From: Victivallis sp. Marseille-Q1083
Lineage (GTDB): Bacteria; Verrucomicrobiota; Lentisphaeria; Victivallales; Victivallaceae
NCBI RefSeq assembly: GCF_903645315.1
Contig: NZ_CAHJXL010000001.1
Span: 2,346,001 to 2,410,000 of the forward strand
DNA length: 64,000 nucleotides
Direction of reading: 5' to 3'
A program made the translations under genes and the position numbers. Shown here in pieces: positions 7,959 through 51,557 of the stretch (its first letter is position 1; every line of letters starts with the position of its first letter). Under the pieces are notes generated by a model. It made no database searches, was not told the origin of the DNA, and was given only the letters and a program-made list of their open reading frames with translations.

Positions 7959-10448
7959 TTATCGGTCCAGTTTCCGGTAGAAATAGAGTGCCATTGAACG
8001 CGGCTCTGACAGCTCCACCGGAAATTCCGCCAATTCATTGCCGGAAACGGTGACCTTTTCTCCCCGGAAGCACTCCAGCTCGTAGTGCTTTTCCGGATTG
8101 ATATTCCGTAAATCAAGCGTGCGCCGGGTTTCGTCACCGTCCGGCCGGCGGAAAACAGCGAAGAATCCCGAACCCTTTTCCGGCGCATGGCATTGATAGG
8201 CGTAAAAATTCCGGCGCGACTCCGGCGCCGGAGTCAGCAAGTGGAAATCGAAGTAAAAATATGCCATCATCCGCTTCGCCGTCTCCAGAACTTCCCGGTA
8301 CCACTTGAAGTCGAACCCGTCGTTCACTTCGCCCATGCCGGCGTTCACTCCCGAAGCTACTCCGGAAAAAACGCCGTAATCGTCGCCTGAAATCACCGTC
8401 GTGCCGCCGGCATGCAGCGGCACCCATTCGGAAAGGTAGGGAATCTCATTGTGGTTGGCTTCACTGCAGTCGTACATGGGCCGTCCCAGCATATCGGAAC
8501 GGAAGAGGCAGATACTGCGTGAGTTGGTTTCAAAATCAATGCGGCGGCCGCCCGAGGCGCAATTGTCAATCAGCATGTCGGGGAAACGCTCGCGCAATGT
8601 ATCCCAGAAACGGTACAAGCCGGCAATGTATTTCATCTCGGTTACCCCCACCCGGTCGGGCGCGTCGTTGTCGGCCCAGAAGGGGATGGTGTTGAAGTTG
8701 AAGTCCTGACGATAATAGTCGATTCCCTCTTCACGCACCAGCCGTTCCACTTCGCCGATCGCCCAGTCACAAGCGGCCTCGTTTCCCAGATTCAGCAGGA
8801 GATTGCCGTCATCGGCCGGCGTGGTCAGCAGCCACTCCGGATGTTCCGCCGCCACCGGGGTTCCCGGCATCACCCGTTCGATTTCCACCCACAGCAGAAA
8901 TTTCATTCCGGCCCGGCGGATCGCCTCGGCCACGGGAAGGAAACCGCCGGGATGGGGAACCCGGTTCACCCGCCAATTGCCCACCGTGCAAGCCCAATCG
9001 CTCGCACCATACTCCGTTGGAGAAACCGGCCGGTCAACGCCGAACCAGCCGGCATCCACCCAGAAAGTGTCGAAAGGCAATTCGTAGCGTTCCTTCTGAT
9101 CGATTATCTGCATCATTCCATCGGAGGACTGCCCTCCCCAGGCGAAACGCGGCAACGGCGTTTGCATCACACTGCCGTCGGCCCGGCGGGGCGAATGATA
9201 CTTTAGCAGAAAACGCCGCAATTGATTCTGGCCGTCCTCTACACTCATGCCCTGGCGGTGATGAATGAATATCGACGGCTGGCGCAGACACTCGCCGGGA
9301 AGCACCCGGAAGTGGGTCTTCGGCATCCCGGCTTCGATCAGGAGCTGGTCGTCGCCGTGCCGCAAATCGGCATACCATGCGCCGCTCCAGCCGATGCCGA
9401 AATTGAGACCTTCCGTTTCCGTGACATCCACGCCGAAAAAAGGCAGCCAAGCCGCCGAACTGCGTCCCTCGTCGGTATCCAGCCGCCAATGATTTTCCGG
9501 ATAACGCGGCCGCAGCCACACCGTTCCCCGGGTGAAATCGCTCTGCGCGTTCTTGCTGCCCACTGTCCGGCGCAATGCCACGTCACGCTGTGGAAACCTG
9601 CAATCGAATGCGTATGGATGGGACAGATAACCTGTTGAGCGGTCTTCCAGAGCCAGGCGCAGCGAGAGCGACCGGAAATCGTCGATTATCCGGCTGGGCT
9701 GCGCTCCCGGGTTCAATACCTCCGGCAACCATTCGATCACCGGGAAATCACGATAGACCGTCACCGTAGTGCGCACGGTCAAAGTCCCATCGGCATCGGT
9801 TTCTTCCATTTGCCAGCGTGTCAGTTCGGACGTTTCCGCCAACTGCCGGACTTCGCGCCGCGCCGTCGTCATCTCGCCGCCACCGTCATAAACGAAAGCC
9901 GCCGCCGGCCGAAACTCGAAAGCGGCGAAATCTGGAGCGGCCAGCTTCCGGCCGTCCGCCAGCGTTACCGCCGGATCGCACCAATTAAAATTGGCCATCG
10001 GCGGAATTCCGGGGAAGTCCGCCGGCAACGCAGTATCGAGCGACCGCAGCCTGATCGCGGTTGCACCGTTCAAATCCGCTTGCAGAAGGAAGGGCGCCTG
10101 GTCGCCCCGCAGCTCCGGCGACCGGGCCAGCTCCCGCCCGGCGTCGTCTTCGACGATGAAGCGAGCCAGCGAATGAAACGGCAAACCGGCCTGAACTCCG
10201 ACCCAGGCCTTGAAACGCTTTCCCGGCGACGGAAGATGCAGGACCAAAAGACTCTGGGCATGATCGCCCCAGCCGGCCCCATAACTCCGCTCGCCGATCT
10301 TCAAAGGCGCTCCGCCCACGGAACAGCCGCACCGCACTACACTTCCCCAGCCGATCCGCCGGGTTTCGATCGCCGCTCCCTTTGCCGGCTTCAGAATCGA
10401 ATTCGCCGTCGCCTCGATAAAGTTTTCCAACTGCATGAATACCCCCAT
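7959..10448 (-). CDS. Alpha-galactosidase, GH36 family
   Basis: An 829-residue glycoside hydrolase of clan GH-D, expected to release terminal alpha-linked galactose by a retaining mechanism. An N-terminal beta-sandwich (to ~300) precedes the TIM barrel. The barrel carries the nucleophile motif Y-Y-R-Q-D-F-N with Asp near 582 and the acid/base motif D-N-C-A-S-G-G-R-R with Asp near 628. The C-terminal ~100 residues form a beta domain. No signal peptide is visible, so it is probably cytosolic and acts on imported oligosaccharides. A second in-frame ATG at 10436 follows GGGGGT and may be the true start. It is the last gene of the leftward cassette that starts with the GntR-type regulator at 14703. 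Confidence 0.9.
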   Translation of the reverse strand: MGVFMQLENFIEATANSILKPAKGAAIETRRIGWGSVVRCGCSVGGAPLKIGERSYGAGWGDHAQSLLVLHLPSPGKRFKAWVGVQAGLPFHSLARFIVEDDAGRELARSPELRGDQAPFLLQADLNGATAIRLRSLDTALPADFPGIPPMANFNWCDPAVTLADGRKLAAPDFAAFEFRPAAAFVYDGGGEMTTARREVRQLAETSELTRWQMEETDADGTLTVRTTVTVYRDFPVIEWLPEVLNPGAQPSRIIDDFRSLSLRLALEDRSTGYLSHPYAFDCRFPQRDVALRRTVGSKNAQSDFTRGTVWLRPRYPENHWRLDTDEGRSSAAWLPFFGVDVTETEGLNFGIGWSGAWYADLRHGDDQLLIEAGMPKTHFRVLPGECLRQPSIFIHHRQGMSVEDGQNQLRRFLLKYHSPRRADGSVMQTPLPRFAWGGQSSDGMMQIIDQKERYELPFDTFWVDAGWFGVDRPVSPTEYGASDWACTVGNWRVNRVPHPGGFLPVAEAIRRAGMKFLLWVEIERVMPGTPVAAEHPEWLLTTPADDGNLLLNLGNEAACDWAIGEVERLVREEGIDYYRQDFNFNTIPFWADNDAPDRVGVTEMKYIAGLYRFWDTLRERFPDMLIDNCASGGRRIDFETNSRSICLFRSDMLGRPMYDCSEANHNEIPYLSEWVPLHAGGTTVISGDDYGVFSGVASGVNAGMGEVNDGFDFKWYREVLETAKRMMAYFYFDFHLLTPAPESRRNFYAYQCHAPEKGSGFFAVFRRPDGDETRRTLDLRNINPEKHYELECFRGEKVTVSGNELAEFPVELSEPRSMALYFYRKLDR

Positions 10449-10506
10449 TGAATTGCTGCGTTCGGAAATTCACTATCCACATCTCATATGCTGGATGCCG
10501 CCGTCT

Positions 10507-11907
10507 TTATTTTAACCGTTCCCGGATTTTCTCGATATAAGAATCGGCCAGATTCGTTTCATAAGTCTTACTCAATACTTCTTTCATGGCTTCGGCGGCG
10601 GTTTCCTGCGCCGCCGGACTCTTCTGCGCCAGTTCGAGGATACGCCAATCCTGGATGCCCCGGAACCAGGCAAGCTGACGGACGCTGGCCTGCGGGCCGC
10701 GGCTTCCTTCATAGATGACCGAGTAATCGCTGCGGTCATTGTCGAAATCATCCCACATGGAGGCGTTTGCTCCATAGCCGACATCATCGTAACTCCAGTA
10801 CCCGGCACCGATCCCGCCGCGCTGCAGCGCCCGCCACAGCATCAGCCGGTACGACGCATACGGCGAATAGGTACGGTTGCTGACCGCATAGAACAACAGT
10901 TCCTGCGGTTTGCGGCCGCCTTCGCGAATCGTTTTCATCTGTTCGGGGATGGCGCCAAAAGAAGGCGACCACAAATTGACATACGGATTCATCATATCCA
11001 GAACCTGAAGTGGAATTCCGTCATAGAAGGTACAGAATATTTTCTGCTTCGGAGCATGTTTGGCTATAAGTCTGGCCAGCGGCAGAATATTTTTTGCCCG
11101 CGCCATATCGGGCTCATCGGTGATATACCACCCATAATTCGATTCGTCGATGCCTTGAGCGGCAAGATATTCGCGAATTTGTGTCAATACCTGCAGAAAA
11201 TTCCGTTCCACGATTTCCCCGCTGACTTTTCCATACCCGTAACCATTCAGTGTATCAGGCGCAGGGACCACCATATAGATTTGATCTTTGACTCCGAACA
11301 CCCCGATCAGCCGGTCCATTTCACGAAAATCCGGCGCTCCGATCAGATTCCCCGACTCATCAGTTTCAAGGGACAGTCCCGATGGGCAGATCAAATGTAC
11401 GTTCGAACCATTCCGCTTCTGATCCAGCAGCACGGCGTGGCGATAAGCGTCACTTTGTCCATAACCGCTCACTGACATGTAATTGTAGTAGTGAAAATTC
11501 AAGGAGTATGGCTTGCCGTCGCGCGGCAATTCGACCGGCATGATCTGCAGCTCCACGGGCACCGTTTTCGCCCATGCTCTTTCGACCGTCGGTTTGATCT
11601 GCAGGCTGAAAGTCCAGTTTCCGGGTTCCAATGCGGCGGTATCGATGGTCAGATAGATGATCTCATTTTCCCCTTGACGGCAATCAATTATGTCGTGAAT
11701 GTCCACGTCGGCCAAAGCGTCGCGCTGAGTGGAGCCGGTACGCAACGCGGTCTCGACAAGCCGCCGGACGGCAACGGCATCCTCCGGCCGGACCTGCCGG
11801 TTTTCGTCCGTGGCGGCGACGATTTTCGAAAGCTCGACCCGGAAGCGTACTGCCTTGTCCCAGGCATTGCCAATCCCGACCGCCAGTGTAACGACTTCAC
11901 CGTGCAA
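10507..11907 (-). CDS. DUF4091 glycoside-hydrolase-like domain (C-terminal half of a frameshifted gene)
   Basis: A 466-residue frame starting at a poor TTG. The reading frame stays open upstream to about 12005, where it joins the preceding CBM9 frame by a -1 step, so this is the second half of one ~779-residue protein. It covers a beta-sandwich and a TIM-barrel-like region with the DUF4091 ending (W-F-R-G-I-Q-D-W-R-I-L-E). Family members are exported enzymes or binding proteins of Bacteroidota, Planctomycetota and Lentisphaerota with poorly known activity. Whether an intact protein is made depends on the frameshift near 11997-12005. It sits 58 bases upstream of the GH36 gene in the same orientation. 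Confidence 0.75.
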   Translation of the reverse strand: MHGEVVTLAVGIGNAWDKAVRFRVELSKIVAATDENRQVRPEDAVAVRRLVETALRTGSTQRDALADVDIHDIIDCRQGENEIIYLTIDTAALEPGNWTFSLQIKPTVERAWAKTVPVELQIMPVELPRDGKPYSLNFHYYNYMSVSGYGQSDAYRHAVLLDQKRNGSNVHLICPSGLSLETDESGNLIGAPDFREMDRLIGVFGVKDQIYMVVPAPDTLNGYGYGKVSGEIVERNFLQVLTQIREYLAAQGIDESNYGWYITDEPDMARAKNILPLARLIAKHAPKQKIFCTFYDGIPLQVLDMMNPYVNLWSPSFGAIPEQMKTIREGGRKPQELLFYAVSNRTYSPYASYRLMLWRALQRGGIGAGYWSYDDVGYGANASMWDDFDNDRSDYSVIYEGSRGPQASVRQLAWFRGIQDWRILELAQKSPAAQETAAEAMKEVLSKTYETNLADSYIEKIRERLK

Positions 11908-11912
11908 TGCCG

Positions 11913-12845
11913 TCAGCTCGAAATTCCGATGCGAGGCTTCCGGCAGCGGCAGAAATGTCGATTGGGGAACTTGCCATGGGTTGGCAGGCCAGACATAAAA
12001 TTTTCTTTGGGATAATTTTCCCGGATCGCCCGCCGGGTTTCCTGGGCGAGCTTTGCCAGAAATCCATTGTAGTCGTCGGCATTGCGGATGTTTTCGGACT
12101 GCGTCGCGAGTTCCCGGTACATCTCCCTGACTTTCGGCTGCCGGGCGTTGTTCAGCGGGGACTCCGACAGTTCCGCCCGCGCGCCATCCTGAAAACTCCC
12201 GACGACCAGCACCGGAAATTCATCGCGTTGGTGAAAACTGCCGCCCAGCGGCATCAGCGACTGGTAATGATCTTTGCCGTTGGCCGCTACCCGACACACA
12301 TTCATGGCGATCCGGTCACCGCTTTTCAACCCGTCCCATAATCCGATCGATTCCAGTGGAATCTTGATTTCCGCTGTGTAGCCGGCATCGCTTTCCACCA
12401 TGGCGAACGGCCATGGAAACGCATAATCCGCCGGATTGCTGATCCCGATTTCCGATTGCGACTTGCCAAACGGATCAATGCTGAAATGGTAATATAATTT
12501 TTCTTTTACCTTGGGGGCGATAAATATTTCTATTGTTTCGTAATCATAATGGAATATGTCATCTTCTGCCGGAGGAGTCAATTCTTCGGGCACAGTCACT
12601 TTGCAGGCGACATAAATGGATTTGCCGTCGGTGAACATGAATGCTTCGGTCGCGGGATCGGCCGGGCGGGCGGCATCGTTAGCGCTGAGTTTATCAAAAC
12701 GGGCATCTTGGTATAGCACCTCATCCAATCTGCCGTCCACCTCCAGTCGGCCGGACAGCAGCGGCAATTCGGCGACTTCCGCCGCGCCGGCCATCATGCC
12801 GAAGACCATCGATAATCCCCATGCCAATTGCTTCAACCGATTCAT
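11913..12845 (-). CDS. Signal peptide plus CBM9-like domain (N-terminal half of a frameshifted gene)
   Basis: A 310-residue frame. Residues 1-22 are a signal peptide (N-R-L-K-Q-L-A-W-G-L-S-M-V-F-G then A-G-A-A). Residues ~30-220 look like a family 9 carbohydrate-binding module (Y-Q-D-A-R-F-D, Y-D-Y-E-T-I-E-I-F-I-A and G-Y-T-A-E-I-K-I-P segments). The last ~25 residues in this frame are nonsense-like, and a -1 shift at GAAAATTTTATG (around 12000) joins it to the DUF4091 frame downstream. The ATG is preceded by AAGGAG. Either a one-base deletion in the T4 run or -1 frameshifting on A-AAT-TTT explains the split. It follows the pseudopilin gene in the same operon. Confidence 0.75.
   Translation of the reverse strand: MNRLKQLAWGLSMVFGMMAGAAEVAELPLLSGRLEVDGRLDEVLYQDARFDKLSANDAARPADPATEAFMFTDGKSIYVACKVTVPEELTPPAEDDIFHYDYETIEIFIAPKVKEKLYYHFSIDPFGKSQSEIGISNPADYAFPWPFAMVESDAGYTAEIKIPLESIGLWDGLKSGDRIAMNVCRVAANGKDHYQSLMPLGGSFHQRDEFPVLVVGSFQDGARAELSESPLNNARQPKVREMYRELATQSENIRNADDYNGFLAKLAQETRRAIRENYPKENFMSGLPTHGKFPNRHFCRCRKPRIGISS
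11997..12005 (-). other. Frameshift point: A-AAT-TTT heptamer within GAAAATTTT
   Basis: In the CBM9 frame the codons are GAA AAT TTT ATG. A -1 slip of the tRNAs on AAT and TTT re-pairs on AAA and TTT, and the next codon becomes TAT, which is exactly the DUF4091 frame. The heptamer fits X-XXY-YYZ. A single missing T in the T4 run would look the same. Confidence 0.6.
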
Positions 12846-12981: not shown

Positions 12982-13590
12982 TCATTTGCTGTCATTGCCC
13001 ATCCAGGTACGCCAATCCACCGCCATTGCCCGGGTAAGATCCGTAACGCTTCCGTCTGCCAGCGAAACGTTGGCCCGGTTGTTATGCCGAAGCATCAGCG
13101 GATACCAGTCGCGATCGAAAGTATTGTAGGTAATTGCCGCGTCGCTGTCCGCCACATCCGCGTCCCAGTTGATCGTCGAACCGTCGCCGTACATCACCGG
13201 ATTGCCGATGACGGCGGCACGTTTTTTCATGTTCGCCTCTCCCGCGTAACCGAAAGCATCGATATTCAAACCGTAAGAAAACCAGCCATAATCGATCTTG
13301 TGATAACTCACCGACGGGCAAACCAGCACCGCTTCCGGCAGATACGCTTCCTTGATAAAAACCTGGGGCCATTGGCCGTGTTCCCAGTCGGAAAGATAGA
13401 CGGGGAAAATCCAATCTTCCCAGTCGTCGGAATAGAGAATCGATCCCAGAGCCACCTGCTTTAAATTCGACTTGCATTTGGTGCTCATCGCCGCAGCCTT
13501 GGCTTTGCCCAGGGCCGGCAGCAGCATGCTGGCAAGAATGGCTATAATAGCAATAACGACCAGCAGTTCAATCAATGTAAACTTTTTCAT
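12982..13590 (-). CDS. Prepilin-type leader protein with H-x9-DG domain (pseudopilin 1)
   Basis: A 202-residue protein. The N-terminus MKK then FTLIELLVV gives a type IV prepilin-like leader with Glu at mature position 5 and a ~20-residue hydrophobic helix. The residue before the predicted cleavage is Lys, not Gly. The C-terminal [12 protein letters not shown] motif matches the prepilin-type processing-associated H-x9-DG domain common in Planctomycetota and Lentisphaerota. Such proteins are expected to be inserted in the inner membrane and processed by a PilD-like peptidase. AAGGAG precedes the ATG. It lies between its regulator (48 bases upstream) and a carbohydrate-binding protein; a dedicated role in surface display or export of the cassette's hydrolases is inferred. 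Confidence 0.88.
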
Positions 13591-13638: not shown

Positions 13639-14703
13639 TCATCTCCCGGATAACGGCCTGGTACTGGCCCGGCAAACCAGTTTCGGCCGCAGAAACAGGG
13701 AGAATACATCCTCTTCCGGAGTTCCGTCCAGTTTTCGATTTAAAAGATAGACGGCTTGCGCGGCGAATTGATCTAGGTTGAAGTCGATCGCGGTCAGCGG
13801 CACCAAATATTCCGTTTCCGGCAGAAGGTTGTTGCAGCCGACCACCGAAACCTCTTCGGGGATTCGGAGGTTCCGCCCCAGAAGCGCTTGAATCGCCCCC
13901 TGGGCAAGCTGGTCGGTGGCGCAGAGCAGCGCATCGAACTCCGACTCATCCACCAGGCGCAAGACCCGTTCATAACCGTGCAGACTCGAATAGCCGGCGG
14001 CCAGAGCTTGCCCGGGCGAGAATTCCAACCCCAGCTCGTGAAGCGCCAGTCGAAATCCCAGATAGCGCATACTTGTTTCCAGATGCTCCTGCGCCAGCGG
14101 AGAATTCCAGTGGAAATTGCCCAGATAAATGATTTTGCGGCACCCCGTCGCGTACAAGTGGCGCATGGCCATCATCATGCCGGAAATCATATCGGTTGCC
14201 ACATAGGTGTCCTCACGAGGAAATTCATTGCCCAGAACTACATAAGGAACTCCAATCCGACGCAGTTCCCCGGCCTCGGCCCCGTAACCGCACAAAATCA
14301 ACGCATCCATGCTTCTCAGGTCGGATTCCATCGTGGCCAATTCGAAATGATCTCCGCCGGTCACGAACAAAGTCGGCGAATATCCCCGTTGCCGCAATTC
14401 CGGACTCATCCGAATTGCCATGGTGTGGAAAAACTGCGAATAATCGGCCTCCGGCACCAGCAGGCCGACTTTGCGAATCCGCAGGGCTTCTCCGATGAAA
14501 GTGCCGGAACCGTGCCGGCGTTTCAAAAAACCGCTGTCTTCCAATAAGCTGACCGCCCGGCGCACGGTCGTAACGGACACCTGATATTCCTTGGACAGTT
14601 GCTTTTCGGTCGGAATTCGTTCACCCGGCAGCCGCCCCCGAATATATTGATCGAAAATCTGTTGACGGGTCTGCTGAGTACAATCGGTTTTTGAATTATT
14701 CAT
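13639..14703 (-). CDS. GntR-type regulator with LacI-like sugar-binding domain
   Basis: A 354-residue transcription factor. Residues ~10-75 are a GntR winged helix (Q-Q-I-F-D-Q-Y-I-R-G, P-T-E-K-Q-L-S-K-E-Y-Q-V-S-V-T-T-V-R-R-A, H-G-S-G-T-F-I). Residues ~80-345 are a periplasmic-binding-protein fold as in LacI/GalR (peripla_BP_3), expected to bind a sugar released by the cassette. This AraR-like architecture usually represses the adjacent operon until the inducer binds. It heads a leftward operon with pseudopilin 1, the CBM9/DUF4091 protein and GH36. A clear promoter and a CAAAG-N10-CTTTG palindrome lie upstream. Confidence 0.9.
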   Translation of the reverse strand: MNNSKTDCTQQTRQQIFDQYIRGRLPGERIPTEKQLSKEYQVSVTTVRRAVSLLEDSGFLKRRHGSGTFIGEALRIRKVGLLVPEADYSQFFHTMAIRMSPELRQRGYSPTLFVTGGDHFELATMESDLRSMDALILCGYGAEAGELRRIGVPYVVLGNEFPREDTYVATDMISGMMMAMRHLYATGCRKIIYLGNFHWNSPLAQEHLETSMRYLGFRLALHELGLEFSPGQALAAGYSSLHGYERVLRLVDESEFDALLCATDQLAQGAIQALLGRNLRIPEEVSVVGCNNLLPETEYLVPLTAIDFNLDQFAAQAVYLLNRKLDGTPEEDVFSLFLRPKLVCRASTRPLSGR

Positions 14704-18287: not shown

Positions 18288-18294
18288 GATTTCC

Positions 18295-20475: not shown

Positions 20476-21603
20476 ATGAATCGAAAACTGCTCTACGAAA
20501 ACATCGTCGACGACATTCGCGCCCGGATGCGCAGCGGGGAATTGGCCGCGGCCGATCCCCTGCCGCCGGTGCAACAGCTCTGCCGTCACTATCAGGTCAG
20601 CCATATCACCGTGCTGCGCAGCCTGAAGGAGTTGAACGCGGCCGGGGTCATCCACCGCCACGGCCGGGGGTATCGTGTCGCTCCGGTCCTGAAGCTGGAG
20701 GAGGAGTTCGCCTTGAGCTCCCGGGCCACCACCATCGGACTCTTTTTGCGCTCCTACTGGAATGCCCCGGACAACTACTTCAATCAGATCAACCAGGCCA
20801 TCGAGAACGAACTCTTCGCCTCGCGCATGGATACGCTGCGTTCCCACTTCAGCAATGTGTTCAACTACTGCCAGCCCGACTCTTCCGGCGAATACGCCGA
20901 AGCCGATGAGATCCTGCGCCAGATGCTGGCCATCGCCCGGCGCTGCTGCGGTCTCCTGGTCGATGAACGGGTTTCGGACCGGATACTGGCCGGATTCCTG
21001 CAGCACTCCGACGTGCCGGTGGTGGTGGTCAACCGCGCTTCCGAGCTGCCGGTCGGTTCCATCGCCATACCCAACTTCTCCGGCGTCAAGCTGCTGCTGG
21101 ACGCCGTCCTGACCCGGGGCTATACCGACATATTCTTCTGCGGCACCGCCGCCCGGCGTTTTTACAACGACTATCAGCGGTTCCGGGCTCTGGAAGAATT
21201 GACGGCGCAGGAGGAGTACGCCGGGCGCTTCCGGATGCACTGGCATACCGACTGGGAGGTTCCTTTTGAAGTTTATTACCAGAAACTGTATAGCGCACTG
21301 ACCCGGCTCTCTCCGCCGCGCAAGCCGCTGATCTTGGCTCCCAGCGACCTTCTGGCGCTGGAACTTTACAAACGGCTTTCCACCCGGGACTGCGAAGTTG
21401 GCCGGGACTACGGACTTTGCGGCTTCTACGGGAGCCCCGTGACTCTTCCCGGCGGCCGGATCATCACTTCGGTCCGGGTCAACACCGACGCCGTCGGCAG
21501 CAGCGCAGTGAAGCTGCTGCTCAAATTCGTCCACAACCCGTGGTGCGAACGCAAAGAAGGAAAGGAGGTCGGAGCCGAACTGGTCTACGGCGATACCGCC
21601 TGA
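20476..21603 (+). CDS. GntR-type regulator with LacI-like sugar-binding domain (second copy)
   Basis: A 375-residue regulator built like the one at 13639: GntR winged helix at residues ~1-75 ([31 protein letters not shown]) and a LacI-type ligand-binding domain from ~80. The frame is open upstream to 20158, but the ATG at 20476 is chosen because GGAGAA precedes it and a consensus promoter ends just before. The wing H-G-R-G-Y replaces the usual H-G-x-G-T-F. It heads an operon with pseudopilin 2 (82 bases on) and the DUF4838 protein, and probably responds to a sugar released by that enzyme. Confidence 0.9.
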
Positions 21604-21685: not shown

Positions 21686-22375
21686 ATGAAAACCAAAAAA
21701 ATCACACTGATAGAACTCTTGGTGGTGATTGCAATCATCGCCATCCTGGCCAGCATGTTGCTTCCCGCCCTAGCCAAGGCGCGGACCGCGGCGCAACTGA
21801 CCAAATGCGTCGGCAACCTCAAGCAGCTCGGACTGTCGTTCACATTGTACGCCAATGACAATCTGGATCAATTGCCGCCTTATTTCGACGCGAACGGAAT
21901 CGCCTGGAGCGATTCCACCGAGCGGGGAGTTCTGACCGCCTATCTCTTCCCGGCCGGAACCGACATCAACATTCATATCGGAGCGGTCAAAGTGCGCGAC
22001 GGCAAACGCCATCCCATGGGTTGCGCCGCGTTGAACGTGTCGGTCAATCCGGCCGCCGATGCGGGCGACAGCCGATACGGCTACGGCTACAATCTGGGAG
22101 CCTGGGCTCCGGTATCCCTCTCCGGCTGCCGCTATCCCTCTCTGTTGCTGCTGATCGGAGAAACCGACCATCCCTGGGGCTCGTTCGTCAATTACACCGC
22201 CGACGCTCCGCCGGCCTATCCCCATAACCGCCGGGGCGCCTTTACCTTCACCGACGGCCATACTTCGACCTATGGTACCGGGCAATTACCCAATGAAGCC
22301 CGGGGAGACAACGGCGTCGACTGTTATGTAAGCAACCTTTACAATCCGAATCCAAGCGTGTTCTTTCAATATTGA
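21686..22375 (+). CDS. Prepilin-type leader protein with H-x9-DG domain (pseudopilin 2)
   Basis: A 229-residue protein with leader MKTKK before ITLIELLVV. Glu is at mature position 5 and a long hydrophobic helix runs to residue ~30. The residue before predicted cleavage is Lys and the first mature residue is Ile, not the usual Gly/Phe pair. The [10 protein letters not shown] segment follows, as in related pseudopilins, and the C-terminal [12 protein letters not shown] matches the H-x9-DG domain. The ATG is preceded by AAAGGA. It sits between the GntR regulator and the DUF4838 gene (69 bases downstream) in a three-gene operon. Confidence 0.88.
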
Positions 22376-40828: not shown

Positions 40829-41869
40829 ATGGAAAATAAACGTTTCAACATCGGTGATATCGCCAAACTGGCCGGCGTTTCGTTGTCGACCGTTTCGGGT
40901 GTCATCAATAACCGGCCGAACGTCAAGCCGGCGACTCGGGACCGTATCCTGCAGGTGATCAAAGAGTGCAACTATGTTCCGCAGAGTTCGGCCCGGGCGC
41001 TTGCCGGCAAACGTTCGAAACGGCTCTGTTTTCTGGTTTCCAGCAATGTTACGCTCGGCATGGCCAACGTTTACTTCAGCACCATCCTTTCCGGCGTCAA
41101 CGCGGTCTGCCAGGCCGGCGGTTACCAGGTCGTCGTCGGCACTTATGATTTGAGCAACATTTCCCGTTTCATCCTGCCGCCGGATCTGGCGTCGAACAGC
41201 AGCGACGGGCTGATTCTAGCCGGGTTGACCGACATCGCGGTCATCCGGGAAATCCAGAAGACCGGCATTCCTTTCATTATCATCAACGGCGATTATCCGG
41301 ACCCGGATATATTGACTTTGAACAGCCATGAGTCAATTTCCCTGACCAATATGCTGCTTCATCTGCTCAAGCTCGGACATCGCCGTATCATCATTCCGCA
41401 TACCGCTGCCTACAGCTTTCAAGCCTACCAGCGGGTGCTCGCCGCCTTGCAGCGGCTGGACAACTATCTGGATACCGAATTGATTCCCTGGCAGCATGAA
41501 CTGGATGAATTCGCGGCCGGGCGACTGTTGGCCAACGAGTGGCTGCTGCAGCGGCAGCAGTTTACCGGCCTGATTGCCAACGATCAATTTGCCATCGCCT
41601 TCCTGCACGAATTTCTCCAGCTTGGCGGCCGCTGCCCGGCCGATGTCAGCATCGTCGCCACTGAAAACTATTTTCTGCAATATTGCCAGGTTCCGCTGAC
41701 CGCCCTTGATGAGCGGGTTTTTGAAGTTGGCTGCCATGCCGCTACCCATCTGCTGGACCTGCTGGAAGGCAAACGATCCTTCGAAGAAGTTCGGCATGAG
41801 ATTGCCACTAAACCGATCATTACTAAGTTGATCGTCCGCGAATCGACTGCACCGCGATTTAAGGAGTGA
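40829..41869 (+). CDS. LacI-family transcriptional regulator (second copy)
   Basis: A 346-residue repressor, paralogous to the LacI protein at 36371-37465 over its whole length (I-G-D-I-A-K-L-A-G-V-S in both; Y-V-P-Q-x-S-A-R-A-L in both). The recognition helix reads S-L-S-T-V-S-G-V-I rather than S-I-S-A-V-S-A-A-L, consistent with a different operator. The ligand domain shares S-S-x-V-T-L-G-x-A-N-x-Y-F-S. The ATG at 40829 has no strong binding site. It leads a cassette of a decayed pseudopilin, a GH84-like enzyme, a truncated EEP protein and an alpha/alpha-toroid protein. Confidence 0.92.
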   Translation: MENKRFNIGDIAKLAGVSLSTVSGVINNRPNVKPATRDRILQVIKECNYVPQSSARALAGKRSKRLCFLVSSNVTLGMANVYFSTILSGVNAVCQAGGYQVVVGTYDLSNISRFILPPDLASNSSDGLILAGLTDIAVIREIQKTGIPFIIINGDYPDPDILTLNSHESISLTNMLLHLLKLGHRRIIIPHTAAYSFQAYQRVLAALQRLDNYLDTELIPWQHELDEFAAGRLLANEWLLQRQQFTGLIANDQFAIAFLHEFLQLGGRCPADVSIVATENYFLQYCQVPLTALDERVFEVGCHAATHLLDLLEGKRSFEEVRHEIATKPIITKLIVRESTAPRFKE

Positions 41870-41903: not shown

Positions 41904-42316
41904 ATGAAAAAAACTGTAATGAAAGAACAACCGGAGAAAGGCATTGCAGATTTCCTGCATCAATAACTTGAAAACTCTTAATTTGGGACATATTCTATAT
42001 GCCAACGATTACGATGACATGGTTCCGGCCGGATATTCCGGAGGCCGTTTTTGGCCGACTGCTTTAGAGTATGCCGGAGTGCTCATGGCGCCGCCAGAAT
42101 TCGGTGAGAAAAGTGATTGGGTCTGTCCGGCCAATGTTCATGTTCCATCTTCTTCAAGTTGGTTTTCCAGTTATGCCCGTATTCGGAATACGCCGCATTA
42201 ATCCGCTGGCGATTAATCTGGCCTTTTGGGATGGCCATGCCGCATTGACTGGACGTAACGATATTTGTAAGGAAACCACCGATGATGGCAATGCCGTCTG
42301 CAATTTTAAACTGTGA
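41904..42316 (+). pseudogene. Decayed pseudopilin gene lacking its leader and helix
   Basis: An ATG with an AAGAGGAATAG binding site at 41904 opens a 20-codon frame that stops at 41964. In a second frame the sequence reads I-S-C-I-N-N-L-K-T-L-N-L-G-H-I-L-Y-A-N-D-Y-D-D-M, the conserved part just after the helix of pseudopilins. After another shift near 42195 it reads L-A-I-N-L-A-F-W-D-G-H, the H-x9-DG-like end. The hydrophobic FTLIELL part is missing. The position, 35 bases after the LacI stop, matches the pseudopilin position of the other cassettes, so this is a broken member of that series. Confidence 0.8.
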
Positions 42317-42393: not shown

Positions 42394-44568
42394 ATGCGCT
42401 ATTTTTTGCTTATGGCTGTATTGCTTGGGGGGATTGTTGCTCAGGCTTCTGCCCCGGTTGATCAATTAATCCCGTTACCGCAGCAGGTGGGCGACACCTG
42501 GCGGCGCCTGAGTGGTTCCTGGCAGTTTGAGTATGATGCTGACATCCCCTTGCTGGAGCTCGGAGTGAATTACCTGTCCGAACGTTTGATTGAGGCCGGC
42601 AGTCCGCAGGGCGGGCCGGTTCGGATTCAGGTTGGCTTATTGAGTGAGCCAGGCATCCGGAAACGGCTGCCGGATGCTCAAAAGCTGCTCTTGACACTGC
42701 CGGGGGAGGGCTATGTCATTCGTCCGACTGGCGATGGCGTTCTGGTGGCCGGCCGGACGCCCCGCGGCGCCTATTACGGTTTGATGACGCTGGCGCAGCT
42801 TGTCGATTCGGCAGGCCTTTGGGTGGCTGATATTCTCGACTATCCGGTCTGGAATCGTCGCTATTTCGGCGATTATGATTTCGGCGGCGCCGAGGGGTAT
42901 CTGGCGTTGTCGCGAAGGAAAATCAACGGCTTCGGGTTACAATGGCGCGATGAATGGCAGAAATTTCAGCCGGAACAATTGCAGAAGCAATGTGCGGCAA
43001 TGGCCGAGGCGGCCGAAAGCGGCCTGATGGATTTCATGCTGCTGATGCATTTGTATTCTTCCTGGGGAGCTCGGGAACTTCCGCAGTTCTGCCACAGCAA
43101 TCCGGCGCATGTCGAGCAGTTGATCGCCAAATTGCGCACAATGGCCAGGTGTGGCGTAGGCCATATCATGATTTGCGCTGACGATTGGACTCCGGTGAAA
43201 GACGGTAAATATATTCTGCCGACCGAGGAAGATAATCAGGCTTTTCCCGATGCGGCAAGTGCTCATGCCGCACTGATGAACCGGATTGTCGAAGAATTGA
43301 AACCGGAATTTCCGGCTCTGGAGTTTTCGCTTTGTCCGCCGCCTTACTCATTGTCACACGGCAACTCGGACCAGCGAATGGCACTGCGGCAGTACTTGAC
43401 TGAAGTCCATCGTCTGACCGAACCGGAAGTCAGACTGGTCTGGACCGGCCGCCACATTGTATCCGCCTCGGTGGCCCGCGACGATTACAATGAATTTGTC
43501 GGCTATCTGCCGGGCCGCCGGTTGTTTCTGTGGGACAACAGCGATTGCATCGAATCGGAATTTCCGCTCTGGCGGACGGTATTCTATCCCGGTTTCGAAT
43601 CTGACAGCGATGGTTTGATCTTTCTCAATTCCCATGCGCTTGGCGTGGCTGACAAGGCTTCGTTTATCTGGGAAAACAATGACTATTTGTGGAATCCCCG
43701 CCGGTATGAACCTGATCGTTCGTTCAAAGCGGCAGTTTCCCAGTTGTACGGCACTGCGGCGGTTGAGCCGTTGACGCAGTTGCGGCATGATGTGATCCAG
43801 TTGATGCACAATACGCCGGCGGATGCCAGTGTGCGGCAGGCCGCCCTTGATCGAATCAAAGTGGAACTGGCCGATGTCAAAACGTTGGGATTCTCGCCTT
43901 CGCGCCTGATGCGGATTTTGGAGGAAAAAGAGCAGGTATGGCATGCGGAGGTGCCGGAAATTACGATTCCGGTTCTCGAAATCGCCGACTTGCCGGTCGA
44001 ACCGGATCAATTGTCTGACGATTTCTGGGCGCGCGGTACCCGGTTGCAGCTTCTGCCGAACCATGGCGGTGCCGAGGTGTCCGCCGAATACCGGACGGAA
44101 GTGACGCTGCTGATCGCCAACGATTGTCTGTATATGCGTTCAACCCAGGAACAGCCGGCTTTGGATAAAATTCCGGAAGTCGCCTATGTGGAAGCGGCCA
44201 ATACAATCTGGCATTATCCGGAGATCATTGAGGTTTTCCTGCTGCCGCGTGAAGATGGAGATGCTTACGTGCATATGGGCTTTGATTTTGCCGGCCGCCG
44301 GGCCGGGGAATATAAACAAGGTGAAAAATGGCTGCCGGATTGGAAAGTGGCCGTTGAAGGCCGGGAAGACGGCTGGAGTGCCGTACTCCGGGTTCCGTTG
44401 TCCGAATTGGAACGCCTTCATCCCGAGGTGCCGTCACCGGATGCGGTTTGGCGTATGAATATCTTCCGGATTCCTTTCCAGGGACCGGTGCAGAGTCTTT
44501 CGCCGAGCAACCGTTTCCATGCGACGGAATTGTTTGCCCGTGTGCATTTTTCGAGCGGACAGGAATAG
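42394..44568 (+). CDS. Exported GH84-like beta-N-acetylglucosaminidase
   Basis: A 724-residue enzyme with a signal peptide (1-20, ending A-S-A). Residues ~25-140 are a GH20b-like alpha/beta domain (L-I-P-L-P-Q-Q, then G-R-T-P-R-G-A-Y-Y-G-L-M-T-L). Residues ~145-430 resemble the GH84 barrel, with the acidic pair D263-D264 in I-M-I-C-A-D-D-W matching the catalytic Asp-Asp of O-GlcNAcase/hyaluronidase-type enzymes. A C-terminal ~170-residue beta-sandwich resembles CBM9. It should release N-acetylglucosamine from glycans or O-GlcNAc proteins. Assignment to GH84 is by motif only. The next gene starts immediately after the stop. Confidence 0.8.
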   Translation: MRYFLLMAVLLGGIVAQASAPVDQLIPLPQQVGDTWRRLSGSWQFEYDADIPLLELGVNYLSERLIEAGSPQGGPVRIQVGLLSEPGIRKRLPDAQKLLLTLPGEGYVIRPTGDGVLVAGRTPRGAYYGLMTLAQLVDSAGLWVADILDYPVWNRRYFGDYDFGGAEGYLALSRRKINGFGLQWRDEWQKFQPEQLQKQCAAMAEAAESGLMDFMLLMHLYSSWGARELPQFCHSNPAHVEQLIAKLRTMARCGVGHIMICADDWTPVKDGKYILPTEEDNQAFPDAASAHAALMNRIVEELKPEFPALEFSLCPPPYSLSHGNSDQRMALRQYLTEVHRLTEPEVRLVWTGRHIVSASVARDDYNEFVGYLPGRRLFLWDNSDCIESEFPLWRTVFYPGFESDSDGLIFLNSHALGVADKASFIWENNDYLWNPRRYEPDRSFKAAVSQLYGTAAVEPLTQLRHDVIQLMHNTPADASVRQAALDRIKVELADVKTLGFSPSRLMRILEEKEQVWHAEVPEITIPVLEIADLPVEPDQLSDDFWARGTRLQLLPNHGGAEVSAEYRTEVTLLIANDCLYMRSTQEQPALDKIPEVAYVEAANTIWHYPEIIEVFLLPREDGDAYVHMGFDFAGRRAGEYKQGEKWLPDWKVAVEGREDGWSAVLRVPLSELERLHPEVPSPDAVWRMNIFRIPFQGPVQSLSPSNRFHATELFARVHFSSGQE

Positions 44569-47328: not shown

Positions 47329-49755
47329 TCAACGTTTCGGAATGGCCGCTTCGATTTCGGCGGCAATCCGGCGGCGGACCTGTTCCAGCCGGACCGGATC
47401 GCGCGAGAAATCGGTCATCGAGCGGCTGATCGCTTCGACATGGGGCAATACCGCGTCGCGGCCGCGCAGCCGGGCAAGGATGGCCAGATATTCGTAATCC
47501 TCGATGCCGTCGCGCAGGCTGATCATCCGGATGCCGGCGACCGGACCGTCCGGCGTCGGGTAGAGCAGGTTGCCGTCGCCGCTGGCGACGAATCCGGTGG
47601 TCTGCCAGTCGAGAAACGGCTGCCAGCGCGCAATCTGCCGGTTGAACGACCAGTCCTGATTCATATGCCAGTAGAGCAGGCCGTCGCTTTCGAATTGCCA
47701 GCCCTGCCAGGCGAGCAGCCGCCCCTCGATCAGCGGGTAATCGATCGCGGCGAAATTCGCGTAAGGATAACGCGGATCGTAACAGACGTACCACCAGACC
47801 TCTTTGCCTTTCCGTCGCAGCTCGGCGGAATGCTGCGGATCGTAATCCGGCGACAGCGGACAGTAACAGTCGAGCCAGTCCTGGTATTCCGGCCCCTGAT
47901 TGCGGCACTGCTCGTACAGATAACGCGCCGTCGACAGCGTTTTCAATTCCGAATAACGTTCCTTGACGAACCGGAAGGTCTGCTTGATCACTTCATCGTA
48001 TTCCGGGCCGCGCTCATCGAAACCGTAGAGATAACCGTCGGCGGCCAGATTGTTCCGCTTCAATTCCCCGACATAATCGTCCAGCCGTTGGGCGATCGAC
48101 CGATTGAAGTCATCGCCATAGGCGTCGACCGGACTGGTTGCCACCCACAGCGCCTCGCTGCCTTCCTCGATCGGCGTGACCAGATTGGTGACGCAGAAGG
48201 CGTTCATGCCGCGTGACCGGGCGTAGAGCAGATCGGTGACCGCCGGCGGTTCGACCCGGGAAATATCATCCGGATTGAGTTTGTAATCCAGCATGATGTC
48301 GAGCAGTTTGCGGCGCAGTTCCGGCGTGATCTCCGGCCAGACGCAACGGGTGAAGCCGTCCATCTGGGCAAAGGCGGTCCGCATGGTCGGCCGAACCGGC
48401 AGCTCGAACGAATAGACCTGCAGGGTGACCGGGAAAGCGGCGACGGTCTGACCGGCGCTTTTCACTTCGACCGTTCCCCGGTAAAGGCCGGCTGGCTGGT
48501 CGGCGGCGGCGTTGAATTCCAGCCAGACGCTTTGCGTATAACCGCCGCGCAGTGTGAAACTATCCTGTGGAATCAACGGTTCCGGCGTCCAGCCCGGCCG
48601 CGACGCATGCGGGTCGCCCGGATGGAAGGACGGAGTCGGGCTCCAGAGGTTGGCGCCGAGATAACAGCGGATGGCCGAGGCGGGAAAGCGGGCGCCGTCT
48701 TCGGCGACCAGATCACCGGCGATAATTTGCAGATCCAGCGTTTCCCGGCGCGGCAGCCGCAGCGCCAGTTGGGCATTTTCCCGTTCCCGGCGGGCCAGCG
48801 CCAGATCGATGACGGTGCCGTCGCCGTCGGTCTTCAATTCGTCCGGATAGAGTCGCCGGGCTGCCGGCACGGTCCAGGCTTCCAGAGCGGCAATGTCGGG
48901 TTGAGCTTCGCCCGACGGCGCCGCATAACGAAAAGTCATGGCAGTTTCGCCGTTGAACGTGGTCAGCTCCACTTCTTCCGGCCGGCGGTCATCGGTTGGG
49001 TGCCAGTGAAAGAGCACGTCGGTCGGATGCCAGCGGGCCAGCGTCTCCTCTGCCGGCTTGTCCAGCACGGCGATTTCTTCGCCGCCGGCCAGCAGCCGGC
49101 AACGCCAGCCGGGCCGGTTGTCACCGAGCTGGGCGCGGATCAGCAAACCGTCCGAACAGGGCTGGTCGGAGCAGACCTGGACGGAATTGGGCAGCAGATT
49201 GGCCAATTCCGGCACCGGGTTGCGCGACAGTTTCAGGTCGTCGAACCATACCCTGCCGCCCTGGCCGTCACGGATCAATGCGAACAATTTGATCTGTTTG
49301 ACCGGCTTGACCGGCTGGAAAAATCCGGCGGCATATTCCCAGTCGTGGGCAGTCGGCCGCCAGTTGGCATAGGCGCCGTAGTGGAAGGTGCCGTCTTCGT
49401 AGGCGATGTCCAGTTGCAGTTGGTAAGTGGCGGTGGCGGTCCGTTCGCACCTGCTCCAGCCGCTGAAAAAAATCGGCCGGGTATCGGGCTGTTCGTAATC
49501 GACGGTCTGGCAGAGGCCGAGCACCGCCGTCGTATCGCTGGAGGCCAGAAAAGAACGTTTCCCGCCATGGGCGGTGGAATCGTCCACCTTGCCGCCGTCG
49601 CCATAGGCGGTCCAGCCGGCCGGGAATCCGGCCGGATCGATGGCTTCAAGGCCTGGGTTGACCAACTGGTTGTCGCCGGTACACGACGATATGGCTGCCG
49701 TGAAATTCGTCGAACTTGACAGCAGAAGGCCGGCTATGACAGTTTTAAAAAACAT
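47329..49755 (-). CDS. Exported DUF4091 family protein
   Basis: An 808-residue protein starting at the ATG 49755 (GGAG nine bases upstream); the in-frame extension to 49866 is polar and unlikely. A signal peptide ends at T-A-A near residue 20. A galactose-binding-like domain follows (L-V-N-P-G-L-E, then W-E-Y-A-A-G-F-F). The middle is a beta-sandwich, and the DUF4091 region at the C-terminus carries the family ending L-R-D-G-I-E-D-Y-E-Y-L-A-I-L-A-R-L. DUF4091 proteins occur in glycan loci of Bacteroidota and Lentisphaerota; activity is uncertain. It follows pseudopilin 4 by 23 bases and is a paralog of the split protein at 10507-12845. Confidence 0.85.
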   Translation of the reverse strand: MFFKTVIAGLLLSSSTNFTAAISSCTGDNQLVNPGLEAIDPAGFPAGWTAYGDGGKVDDSTAHGGKRSFLASSDTTAVLGLCQTVDYEQPDTRPIFFSGWSRCERTATATYQLQLDIAYEDGTFHYGAYANWRPTAHDWEYAAGFFQPVKPVKQIKLFALIRDGQGGRVWFDDLKLSRNPVPELANLLPNSVQVCSDQPCSDGLLIRAQLGDNRPGWRCRLLAGGEEIAVLDKPAEETLARWHPTDVLFHWHPTDDRRPEEVELTTFNGETAMTFRYAAPSGEAQPDIAALEAWTVPAARRLYPDELKTDGDGTVIDLALARRERENAQLALRLPRRETLDLQIIAGDLVAEDGARFPASAIRCYLGANLWSPTPSFHPGDPHASRPGWTPEPLIPQDSFTLRGGYTQSVWLEFNAAADQPAGLYRGTVEVKSAGQTVAAFPVTLQVYSFELPVRPTMRTAFAQMDGFTRCVWPEITPELRRKLLDIMLDYKLNPDDISRVEPPAVTDLLYARSRGMNAFCVTNLVTPIEEGSEALWVATSPVDAYGDDFNRSIAQRLDDYVGELKRNNLAADGYLYGFDERGPEYDEVIKQTFRFVKERYSELKTLSTARYLYEQCRNQGPEYQDWLDCYCPLSPDYDPQHSAELRRKGKEVWWYVCYDPRYPYANFAAIDYPLIEGRLLAWQGWQFESDGLLYWHMNQDWSFNRQIARWQPFLDWQTTGFVASGDGNLLYPTPDGPVAGIRMISLRDGIEDYEYLAILARLRGRDAVLPHVEAISRSMTDFSRDPVRLEQVRRRIAAEIEAAIPKR

Positions 49756-49778: not shown

Positions 49779-50546
49779 TCAGCGAACCGGCGTTTCCCGG
49801 CCGGTGGCGATATAAAGGCCGCTGGCACCGTTCAACGGGCTCCACAACTTTTCCCACAGCAGCCATTCGGCGGCGACGACCGATTCGGCATGACCATCGA
49901 TGGCTACCATGTTGGCGCGGTTGTTGTGCCGGCCGGCCACCGCATAGGCGTTCATGCTGGTTCCCTTCAAAGTCGGCCAGCAGCCGGCATCGACGCTCAA
50001 TAGAATGCTTTCATGCCAGTTTTCCATGCCGGCGGCGACACCTTCGCTTTTCGGATAACTGTCGGCGGCATACATCAGCGAAGACGCCGTACCGAAGGAA
50101 GCCAATTCGACGGCTTTGTGCGGCTTGTGCCACCAGTTGCGGCCGCTGAGCTCGTAGGTGGCGACGATGCCGGTGCTGTTGTAGTTGATGCCGTAGCAGC
50201 CTTCGTCCTCGTCGAGGATGGTGTCCCAGTCGGTGCCTTTGCCGGCGGCGGCCGGGCAGACGACGCTGCCGGAGCCGTAACCATACTCCTCCTTCAGAAT
50301 GCCGTAATAGGACCACCAGCCGTTGTCGCGTACCAGATTCGGACTCAATACCCAGTCGTCGTAATCATTCTGATAAAGCGCGTTGGTGGTACCGAGCTGT
50401 TTCAGGTTGTTCAGGCATTTGATTGATTGCGCCGTCGCCTTGGCCTTGCCGAGCGCCGGCAGCAGCATGCTGGCGAGAATGGCGATGATGGCGATCACGA
50501 CCAGCAGTTCGATCAGTGTGAAATTCTTTCGGGACTGATTTTGCAT
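49779..50546 (-). CDS. Prepilin-type leader protein with H-x9-DG domain (pseudopilin 4)
   Basis: A 255-residue protein starting at ATG 50546 (AAAGGA upstream). The leader MQNQSRKN precedes FTLIELLVV, so the residue before cleavage is Asn rather than Gly; Glu is at mature position 5. A hydrophobic helix and [12 protein letters not shown] follow, then [10 protein letters not shown]. The [12 protein letters not shown] motif near residue 220 is the H-x9-DG signature, and a ~30-residue tail extends beyond it. It leads a leftward operon with the DUF4091 gene and is divergent from an AraC regulator. Confidence 0.88.
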
Positions 50547-50650
50547 TTTGACATCCTTTCCTATTTTGGATTTGTTCAAATGATATGACAATCAGCTATT
50601 CGGCCGGTTGCCGGCGGCAATTCGGGACAGTTCGCTGATATCCAAATATA

Positions 50651-50679
50651 TATTTAGCGAAAATTTGCAAATAAGTCAA
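50651..50679 (-). promoter_or_regulatory. Promoter of the pseudopilin-DUF4091 operon
   Basis: On the minus strand TTGACT (50679-50674), a 17-base spacer and TAAATA (50656-50651). Confidence 0.7.
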
Positions 50680-50735
50680 TGGCCATTTATGTTAAAAACA
50701 GTTACTCGTATAGCACGAAAGGATACTGATGCAAA

Positions 50736-51557
50736 ATGTCGGAAACGAGTGCCATCCCGTCTTTGCTCTTCTCCCATGCCGGCATCGGTGCCGGCAAGGC
50801 ATTTTTCGGCGGCCACAATCATGACGGCACGGAACTGGTCTTTGTTCGCCGGGGACATTGCGAATCGGTTTTCAGCCGGGAGCAGAACAGCCGTGAATCG
50901 CTGCGGCTGACCGCCGGCGTGCACGATCTGTACGTCATTCCGCCGCGGCTCTATCACAATCAGATCAACCTGGAGACGACCGAAACGCTCTATCTGGTTT
51001 TTCAGGCCAGCCGCGAGTTGTTCGACAGTACGCTGCGGATCATCCATGTGACGGACGAACTGGTGGAAAACTGGCTGGAGTTGATCGTCAGACTGGACGA
51101 TGAACTGCAGTTTGAACAATGCCGCGGACTGCTCTATGCCTTGCTGAACCGGTTGAAGGAGGCCGAACGGTCACAGCGGGCGGACGACAGGTTTCCGCCG
51201 CAATTGAACCGGGCTTTGGCCTTCATTGAACGCAATCTGGCCGACGGCGAACTCTCCCAGAAGGAAATTGCCCGCTCGGCAGTGATCAGCGTCAGTTACC
51301 TGAAGAAGTTGTTTCTGCACCGTCTCGGCACCAGTCCGATGACTTATGTTCAGGACCTGCGGATGTATCGCGCCAGACAGTTGCTGCGCAACCGCTATTT
51401 GTTCATTTCGGAAGTCGGCGTAAAGTGCGGCTATCCGTCGGCGAATTATTTTTCCCGGGTATTCCGCCGGCATCACAATATTTCCCCGGAGGAGTTTCGC
51501 CGTTATCTGGACACCGGGGTGGAACGGGAGGACGATCAGCCGCAACATTTTATTTGA
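50736..51557 (+). CDS. AraC-family transcriptional regulator (second copy)
   Basis: A 273-residue regulator. The first ~170 residues hold a cupin-like part (F-G-G-H-N-H-D-G-T-E-L-V-F-V near 24-37, then V-I-P-P-R-L-Y-H-N near 67) of the AraC ligand-binding type. The C-terminus is the double HTH (S-V-S-Y-L-K-K-L-F-L-H-R-L-G, then F-I-S-E-V-G-V-K-C-G-Y-P-S-A-N-Y-F-S-R-V-F-R). AAAGGA lies upstream of the ATG. It is divergent from the pseudopilin/DUF4091 operon across 189 bases and probably activates it. A MATE gene ends convergently 18 bases downstream. Confidence 0.88.
   Translation: MSETSAIPSLLFSHAGIGAGKAFFGGHNHDGTELVFVRRGHCESVFSREQNSRESLRLTAGVHDLYVIPPRLYHNQINLETTETLYLVFQASRELFDSTLRIIHVTDELVENWLELIVRLDDELQFEQCRGLLYALLNRLKEAERSQRADDRFPPQLNRALAFIERNLADGELSQKEIARSAVISVSYLKKLFLHRLGTSPMTYVQDLRMYRARQLLRNRYLFISEVGVKCGYPSANYFSRVFRRHHNISPEEFRRYLDTGVEREDDQPQHFI

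Follow-up and report, generated by a model that had tools for sequence, protein, structure and literature searches.

Cassettes of regulator, pilin and glycan hydrolase genes in Victivallis and other Lentisphaeria, in which pilin and enzyme look like an inherited pair

Cassettes in the window

The window analyzed here is a stretch of 64,000 nucleotides from Victivallis sp. Marseille-Q1083 (positions 2346001-2410000 of the 4.82-Mb genome, 99.7% complete), hereafter the own or home genome. It contains five cassettes (A-E), in each of which a gene for a type IV pilin-like protein, or its remnant, lies between a regulator gene and a gene for an often glycan-active protein. As judged from sequence similarity, pilin and enzyme look like an inherited pair, and the regulators look as if they had been swapped between genomes. 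The features are given below in window coordinates. In what follows, L-numbers are labels of loci or stretches, and G009 is a second genome.

7959..10448, minus strand: melibiase-type hydrolase of cassette A with an NPCBM domain (Melibiase 2.6e-28, NPCBM 6.1e-13)
10507..11907, minus strand: GH123-like protein of cassette A, below the Pfam cut-off (GH123_cat 5.6e-4, 19.8 bits against a cut-off of 23.1)
11913..12845, minus strand: CBM9-like protein of cassette A (CBM9_1 4.8e-9)
12982..13590, minus strand: pilin of cassette A, 202 amino acids (N_methyl and TIGR04294 matches, N-helix)
13639..14703, minus strand: regulator of cassette A, a GntR helix-turn-helix (HTH) with a LacI-type periplasmic-binding sensor domain (Pfam GntR 1.3e-13, Peripla_BP_3 3e-26)
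20476..21603, plus strand: GntR-type regulator of cassette B (HTH matched by GntR-family models; a GntR match in the genome-wide search too)
21686..22375, plus strand: pilin of cassette B, 229 amino acids (N-helix, H-x9-DG; TIGR02532 17.7 bits against 16.3; no Pfam match)
22445..24760, plus strand: DUF4838 / GH67N-like protein of cassette B (DUF4838 7.3e-60)
25182..27212, plus strand: beta-lactamase-fold protein after cassette B, of uncertain membership (PF00144 4e-22)
32815..32976, minus strand: C-terminal remnant of a copy of the cassette C pilin (tblastn 2e-13, 57% over 54 amino acids to pilin 35626)
33049..35487, minus strand: metallophosphoesterase/PQQ-propeller protein of cassette C (PQQ_2 1.9e-35, Metallophos 5.8e-7)
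35626..36318, minus strand: pilin of cassette C, 230 amino acids, structure modelled (profile matches, predicted structure)
36371..37465, minus strand: LacI regulator of cassette C (LacI 5e-14)
40829..41869, plus strand: LacI regulator of cassette D (LacI 1.3e-18)
41932..42138, plus strand: decayed pilin of cassette D, N-helix lost (tblastn, best 3e-9 to an own-genome pilin)
42394..44568, plus strand: NAGidase (GH84-type) of cassette D (NAGidase 6e-25)
47329..49755, minus strand: GH123 hydrolase of cassette E (GH123_cat 4.6e-19; in L015 a paralogue with 48% identity over 796 amino acids adjoins the paralogous pilin)
49779..50546, minus strand: pilin of cassette E, 255 amino acids (profile matches; head 56% identical to the paralogue L015:4445)
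50736..51557, plus strand: AraC regulator of cassette E, divergent (HTH_18 7.3e-20)

In a broad sense, the cassettes fit a glycan-utilisation locus, as they combine a local regulator with putatively exported glycan-active enzymes, export being predicted from a crude hydrophobicity proxy. The four intact pilins and two remnants were found where the sequence-only reading had placed them, with the gaps and strands that it gave. The same-strand gap between regulator and pilin is 48 bp in cassette A (GntR 13639/12982), 82 bp in cassette B (GntR 20476/21686) and 52 bp in cassette C (LacI 36371/35626). In cassette D, the LacI gene ends about 35 bp before position 41904, from where the remnant had been taken to start, and pilin similarity is detectable from 41932. 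The proposed fifth cassette was also borne out: AraC 50736(+) and pilin 49779 are divergent, with 189 bp between them. Both decayed pilins exist, but the one at 32.8 kb is a 54-residue C-terminal piece that is attached to no regulator. It lies at 32815-32976(-), on the strand opposite to AraC 31747-32676(+), and is part of no regulator cassette. The metallophosphoesterase gene of cassette C is flanked by the intact pilin on one side and this scrap on the other. Cassette D represents a natural loss case, in which the pilin has decayed and the LacI and NAGidase genes are still open. Between cassettes A and B, at 15141-19401 (-), lie genes for an AcrB-type RND (resistance-nodulation-division) pump and an HlyD-type adaptor.

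All four intact pilins scored above the cut-off of TIGR02532, the model of the N-terminal cleavage/methylation motif, and by this motif and their hydrophobic N-helix they classify as predicted type IV pilin-like proteins. The exact H-x9-DG signature is present in all four, and the N-helix reads ITLIELL... in 21686. The PF07963 protein scan placed 12982 above the cut-off and 35626 (21.0) and 49779 (20.8) just below the required 21.2, with no match for 21686, and the curated H-X9-DG model TIGR04294 was passed by 12982 only, that is, by one of the four. None of the four reached the equivalog models of type II secretion system (T2SS) pseudopilins, for which the best scores were 29.3 against 88.85 bits for GspG, 27.1 against 80 for GspH and 16.9 against 44.35 for GspI. 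Among the profile and fold matches listed, the nearest were type IV pilins, with Thermus PilA4 first.

Synteny in the home genome and in related genomes

A search of the home genome with N_methyl yielded 198 candidate sites, 150 of which were listed and scored; pilin 21686 is outside this list and the other three intact window pilins are inside. The pilin count is probably an undercount, since 198 candidates were seen and 150 scored. HTH sites number 58 for LacI, 67 for GntR and 53 for AraC. About one gene downstream of such a regulator, on the same strand, we found 62 of the 150 listed pilin sites (GntR 37, LacI 24, AraC 1), and a divergent regulator stands at 15 further sites (AraC 8, GntR 5, LacI 2). 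In 300 random placements, the means were 1.9 for same-strand and 2.2 for divergent regulators, and the maximum was seven for each. Counted from the regulators, 61 listed pilins stand behind the 125 LacI/GntR sites. The pilin genes are thus placed non-randomly relative to regulators, as the sequence-only reading had supposed, and the same holds in other Lentisphaeria. Given the genome-wide count and the second genome, the synteny is explained neither by chance nor by a local cluster.

The second genome, G009, belongs to another genus of the same family. It has 283 pilin candidates, of which 150 were scored, and 40 stretches were taken. A LacI or GntR gene lies upstream on the same strand of 35 of its 77 non-edge pilins, with a 4-bp overlap between regulator and pilin in five cases, and the commonest downstream families (n=60) were GH5 (9), GH42 (8) and GH39 (6). 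Another 80 related loci were identified by pilin similarity, among others in the Victivallaceae, Victivallales, other Lentisphaeria and Verrucomicrobia (L069, L071 and L132, without a called pilin, were left out of the count). Among those from Lentisphaeria, 14 of 36 non-edge pilins stand behind a same-strand GntR or LacI gene, so that the regulator-pilin order recurs in this class. Four of these 14 pilins, from three loci, belong to Victivallis vadensis DSM 14823, with gaps of 17, 65 and 35 bp to GntR and 600 bp to LacI. In the loci from Verrucomicrobia and other non-Lentisphaeria, none of the 57 pilins was behind a same-strand GntR or LacI gene and one had a divergent LacI, which leaves the idea that this order is a property of such pilins everywhere unsupported.

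The anatomy of the cassettes was counted from a first gene calling, which overlooked 23 of the listed pilin sites and 11 regulator sites; the fetched loci hold 97 listed pilin sites, of which an anchored gene calling afterwards recovered 90. The 60 home-genome stretches and the window gave 74 canonical pilins. Their spacing is operon-like, with same-strand gaps mostly of 10-130 bp to the upstream gene and mostly below 150 bp to the next gene. The 70 upstream entries (one gene twice) included Peripla_BP_3 (30), GntR (24), LacI (13) and AraC HTH (7). These percentages are biased and unusable as rates, because L050-L063 were chosen around known regulator-pilin pairs; the G009 tiles were chosen for pilin density only. 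Overall, the listed pilins have a regulator directly upstream or divergent in about half of the cases, and the protein encoded after the pilin is then often exported, by the hydrophobicity proxy, and often glycan-active.

The Pfam families of 66 downstream proteins were led by GH123_cat (12), DUF4838 (8), Laminin_G_3 (6), DUF6259 (4), GH42 (3) and GH20b (3). As a control, 66 random genes of 300-1500 residues that are not adjacent to pilins were drawn from the same stretches, and some of these genes sit further down pilin cassettes; the control set yielded GH20b (6), GH20 (5), GH123_cat (4), GH18 (2) and a mixed rest. N-terminal hydrophobic segments, a crude proxy for export, were commoner in the downstream proteins: in the home genome, 44 of 75 downstream proteins and 108 of 305 others had one, and the corresponding counts in G009 were 47 of 57 and 47 of 146.

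Two pilin genes have an IS110-type transposase gene 45-48 bp upstream (L020:13769-14788(-) and L027:9121-10140(-)), which is possibly a means of shuffling. A tandem GntR-pilin-GntR-pilin arrangement is located at L055:2890-6829(+), with regulators 80% and heads 53% identical.

Inheritance of the cassette partners

To pair the partners across genomes, we used 216 Lentisphaeria pilins from the home genome, G009 and the named loci, leaving out the loci chosen for DUF4838. Similar-head pairs were defined by E < 1e-14 over at least 100 residues with a downstream gene on both sides, and 64 cross-genome pairs were obtained, which share members and are not all independent. The downstream genes were homologous in nine of the 64 pairs (in one over 149 residues only). 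Shuffling of partners within genomes gave a mean of 0.89 and a maximum of six, and never nine in 3000 runs. The regulators, by comparison, were homologous in one of the 25 similar-head pairs with regulators on both sides, against an expected 0.47 (p 0.40). Four of the nine pairs have labelled regulators on both sides; in three these belong to different families, and in one they are two non-matching GntR proteins. For example, L203 (LacI) and L026 (GntR) have heads that are 34% identical and enzymes that are 52% identical. Pilin and enzyme look like an inherited pair because similar heads track homologous downstream genes and not, detectably, regulators.

Duplicated cassettes were also found within genomes. 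Four close head pairs in the home genome were co-duplicated with their enzymes, with head/enzyme identities of 66/53%, 56/48% (window 49779 and L015:4445), 47/50% and 45/68%. Within G009, two head-enzyme pairs were found against 0.32 expected (p 0.04). Reciprocal best downstream matches between the home genome and G009 were only four, with the pilin among the top three in two of them (p 0.25), which is too few.

The DUF4838 protein of the window provides an example of one enzyme family in many settings. It has homologs in 38 of the 137 genomes of the order. Of the 27 fetched loci that reach at least 650 bases upstream of the gene, the window locus included, 16 have a same-strand pilin in front of it. 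The regulators vary: the window locus has GntR, L222 and L226 have LacI, L225 has a divergent AraC and L228 a divergent LacI, and L223 (pilin 8951), L224 and L227 have no labelled regulator. That the DUF4838 pilins form one clade is unsupported; nine of the 16 have another DUF4838 pilin as their best match, a figure that is confounded by the relatedness of the genomes.

The dedicated partnership of pilin and hydrolase that had been read from the window is partly upheld, in that the head is inherited together with its downstream gene in comparisons between genomes, as a dedicated partner predicts. However, the regulator is no fixed part of this unit.

The shared N-helix and the divergent heads

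Of 99 pilins sampled from the home genome, 93 match the N-helix pattern, and 87 have one and the same sequence over 23 residues. These 87 identical helices are encoded by 87 different DNA sequences, with a mean codon identity of 0.51 against 0.46 expected from codon usage, and therefore point to long-standing purifying selection on the helix. The same numbers rule out recent duplication or gene conversion as the source of the identity. We infer that a single filament core is common to the cassette pilins. The heads, of 175-231 residues, are divergent, with the exact H-x9-DG in 70 of the 93, and tryptophan plus tyrosine make up a median 9.7% of the heads, against 6.3% for downstream proteins and 5.0% for other proteins. 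Beside canonical pilins, L024:6103-9917(-) contains a row of pilin-type genes with different N-helices.

A helix of this kind could also serve as an anchor in a periplasmic scaffold that never polymerises, with the head holding substrate or enzyme at the inner membrane. A copy number of 150 listed sites and 198 candidates is unusual for filament subunits, and the neighbouring family PF07596 is termed a solute-binding protein family in the available text of PMC2754498. In our judgement, however, identity of the helix in 87 of 99 pilins exceeds what a membrane anchor seems to need, and we give this explanation little weight.

Secretion and pilus machinery

The home genome has 12 matches to the T2SSE family. 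Among 45 proteins picked from five loci, there were four matches to Secretin, four to T2SSG, five to T2SSF and seven to T2SSE. By gene order and length, we read four of these loci (L018, L229, L230 and L231) as probable secretin-E-F-G operons, and L035 as a putative PilB-PilB-PilT-PilC-like cluster. Lower-score T2SSE-family matches are located at G000:C1:605141-607088, 1330954, 1618112 and 2269976-2271934. We read these as PilT-like, and they look numerous for one genome.

The secretin operons are relevant to an explanation in which the head recognises the co-encoded enzyme and not a glycan: the pilin would be a swappable minor pseudopilin that recruits the enzyme into a type II secretion system, or would display it on a filament. 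The co-inheritance of pilin and enzyme fits this explanation, as do the four operons and the frequent N-terminal hydrophobic segment of the downstream proteins, and it agrees with the display, export or docking role first suggested from the window. However, small pilin-type genes with other N-helices are found in the T2SS operons themselves, the cassette pilins score far under the curated GspG/H/I cut-offs (at most 29.3 bits against 44-89), and the DUF4838 enzyme family is paired with clearly different heads between genomes. Taken together, we consider enzyme recognition rather unlikely.

Neither SusD (PF07980) nor the TonB-dependent barrel (PF00593) had a match in the home genome. In 14 control genomes, PF07980 was matched in one and PF00593 in three, Bacteroides being positive in both searches. 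This agrees with the claim that the unit is not built on SusCD.

Interpretation

We propose that the cassettes are self-contained glycan-utilisation operons of the Lentisphaeria, in which the heads of the pilins, carried on a shared filament core, capture the glycan on behalf of the enzyme that they are paired with, and give this reading a probability of about one half. A sugar or sugar derivative would relieve the regulator. After processing, the pilin would join a single, shared type IV-type filament by way of the common helix. The aromatic-rich head would capture one kind of glycan and, by holding or retraction, deliver it to the hydrolase that is expressed with the pilin, either on the cell surface or in the periplasm. 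The heads would thereby act as interchangeable fishing hooks in place of SusD. Binding of glycan rather than enzyme is preferred because the heads are aromatic-rich, because one enzyme family occurs with different heads, and because pili-like fibres of Planctomycetes bind dextran and fishing-rod pili have been proposed.

Several observations weigh against this reading. The head-enzyme pairing within the home genome is moderate (14 pairs against 6.0 expected, p 0.013), and in a Mantel test on 32 own-genome triplets the similarities of pilin and downstream protein were uncorrelated (r 0.007, p 0.46). For the same triplets, the regulator-enzyme comparison gave r 0.21 (p 0.007), a value that is inflated because two of them carry an IS110-type transposase as the upstream gene. 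With the strictest cut-off, regulators too are inherited together with the pilin within genomes (three against 0.46 in the home genome, p 0.011; one against 0.05 in G009, p 0.045), and the swap of regulators is therefore a between-genome result. Taken together, the pilins linked to DUF4838 resemble one another no more than background. Hydrolases also occur among the control genes, and as the stretches are glycan-rich anyway, the enrichment of enzymes downstream is a matter of degree. The high tryptophan plus tyrosine content of the heads is open to other meanings, and no carbohydrate-binding fold was found among the fold matches listed, which is no proof of absence. Co-transcription of the cassette genes is read from the gaps, and the binding of glycan, the processing and assembly of the pilin and the induction of the cassettes are predicted parts of the model. 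Finally, 73 of the 150 listed pilin sites had no LacI, GntR or AraC in the positions tested, and cassette D keeps its regulator and hydrolase beside a decayed pilin. With similar pilin-enzyme pairs found under different regulators between genomes, the last two points modify the earlier view of the regulator as a fixed member of the unit.

The lack of correlation among the 32 triplets, the pilins without regulators, the absence of such a context in Verrucomicrobia and other groups, and the decay in cassette D would also be expected if the pilin served adhesion or the cell surface in general and was carried along in sugar operons, unconnected in function to individual enzymes. The cross-genome co-inheritance with the downstream gene and the co-duplicated pairs argue against this, and we hold it to be very improbable.

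The reading of the heads as glycan-capturing partners could be extended to a new class of polysaccharide utilisation locus with the swappable pilin as its signature. At least about 150 different heads per genome, almost all of them built on an invariant helix, would be plugged on demand into one retractable filament, each feeding its neighbour enzyme, with the regulators reshuffled freely. This extension is tentative, and we would not yet rely on it. Apart from this extension, the tie between single pilins and single glycan enzymes allows the function of such pilins to be tested cassette by cassette, for which Victivallis vadensis DSM 14823 is available as a named strain. It would also account for the handling of many glycans by bacteria that lack SusCD, and would offer an experimental handle on the fishing-rod idea for Planctomycetes.

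Comparison with known systems

In Bacteroidetes, each SusCD locus combines a local regulator with a surface component and with enzymes that act on glycans, and a genome has many such loci. The cassettes resemble them in bringing regulator, surface component and enzymes together, and differ in having a pilin gene in the locus and no SusD or TonB-barrel match in the home genome. Unlike the T2SS pseudopilins (GspG/H/I/J/K), the cassette pilins are encoded outside a secretion operon, score far below the curated GspG/H/I models and are spread over metabolic cassettes. Pilins are also linked to polysaccharide degradation in the chitin-regulated pilus of Vibrio and in Ruminococcus albus, with one or few pilins per organism. 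In contrast to these substrate-adhesive type IV pili, there are at least about 150 pilin genes here with one common N-helix.

The closest families in the PVC (Planctomycetes, Verrucomicrobia and Chlamydiae) bacteria are DUF1559 (PF07596) and H-X9-DG (TIGR04294), which resemble the cassette pilins in the kind of N-terminus, in the H-x9-DG motif of the tail and in the large number of paralogues. In the accessible portions of the cited papers, such families have an unassigned or loosely assigned function: 68 DUF1559 paralogues in P. limnophila are of unknown function, with two essential (PMC10632474), and 74 genes in R. baltica are called a solute-binding family (PMC2754498). The order of regulator, pilin and enzyme goes unmentioned in these portions, and the loci sampled from Verrucomicrobia and other groups did not show it.

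In Planctomycetes, dextran binds to pili-like fibres before uptake (Boedeker 2017, PMC5394234), and cell-surface pili of "dedicated pilin-like proteins" have been proposed as fishing rods (2025 review, PMC12078418). The likeness lies in pili-like fibres that bind polysaccharide. As far as their accessible text goes, the two papers name no pilin gene, regulator or enzyme-paired cassette, and the words "pilin" and "DUF1559" are absent from that of PMC5394234. Within the available text, a glycan survey of Planctomycetota describes pili of Fimbriiglobus and chitin adhesion, with "pilin" and "DUF1559" absent from the main text (PMC11131199), a paper on Kiritimatiellales lacks the word "pilin" (PMC6388578), and a Legionella paper mentions Victivallis only as a lipase match (PMC6617341). 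Our literature searches, whose coverage mostly excluded subscription literature, found no description of regulator-pilin-hydrolase operons. What is new here is the cross-genome co-inheritance of the pilin head with the downstream gene, and not detectably with the regulator. Compared with the planctomycete fibres, the pilins of the Lentisphaeria pair with individual enzyme genes and in many cases also with a regulator.

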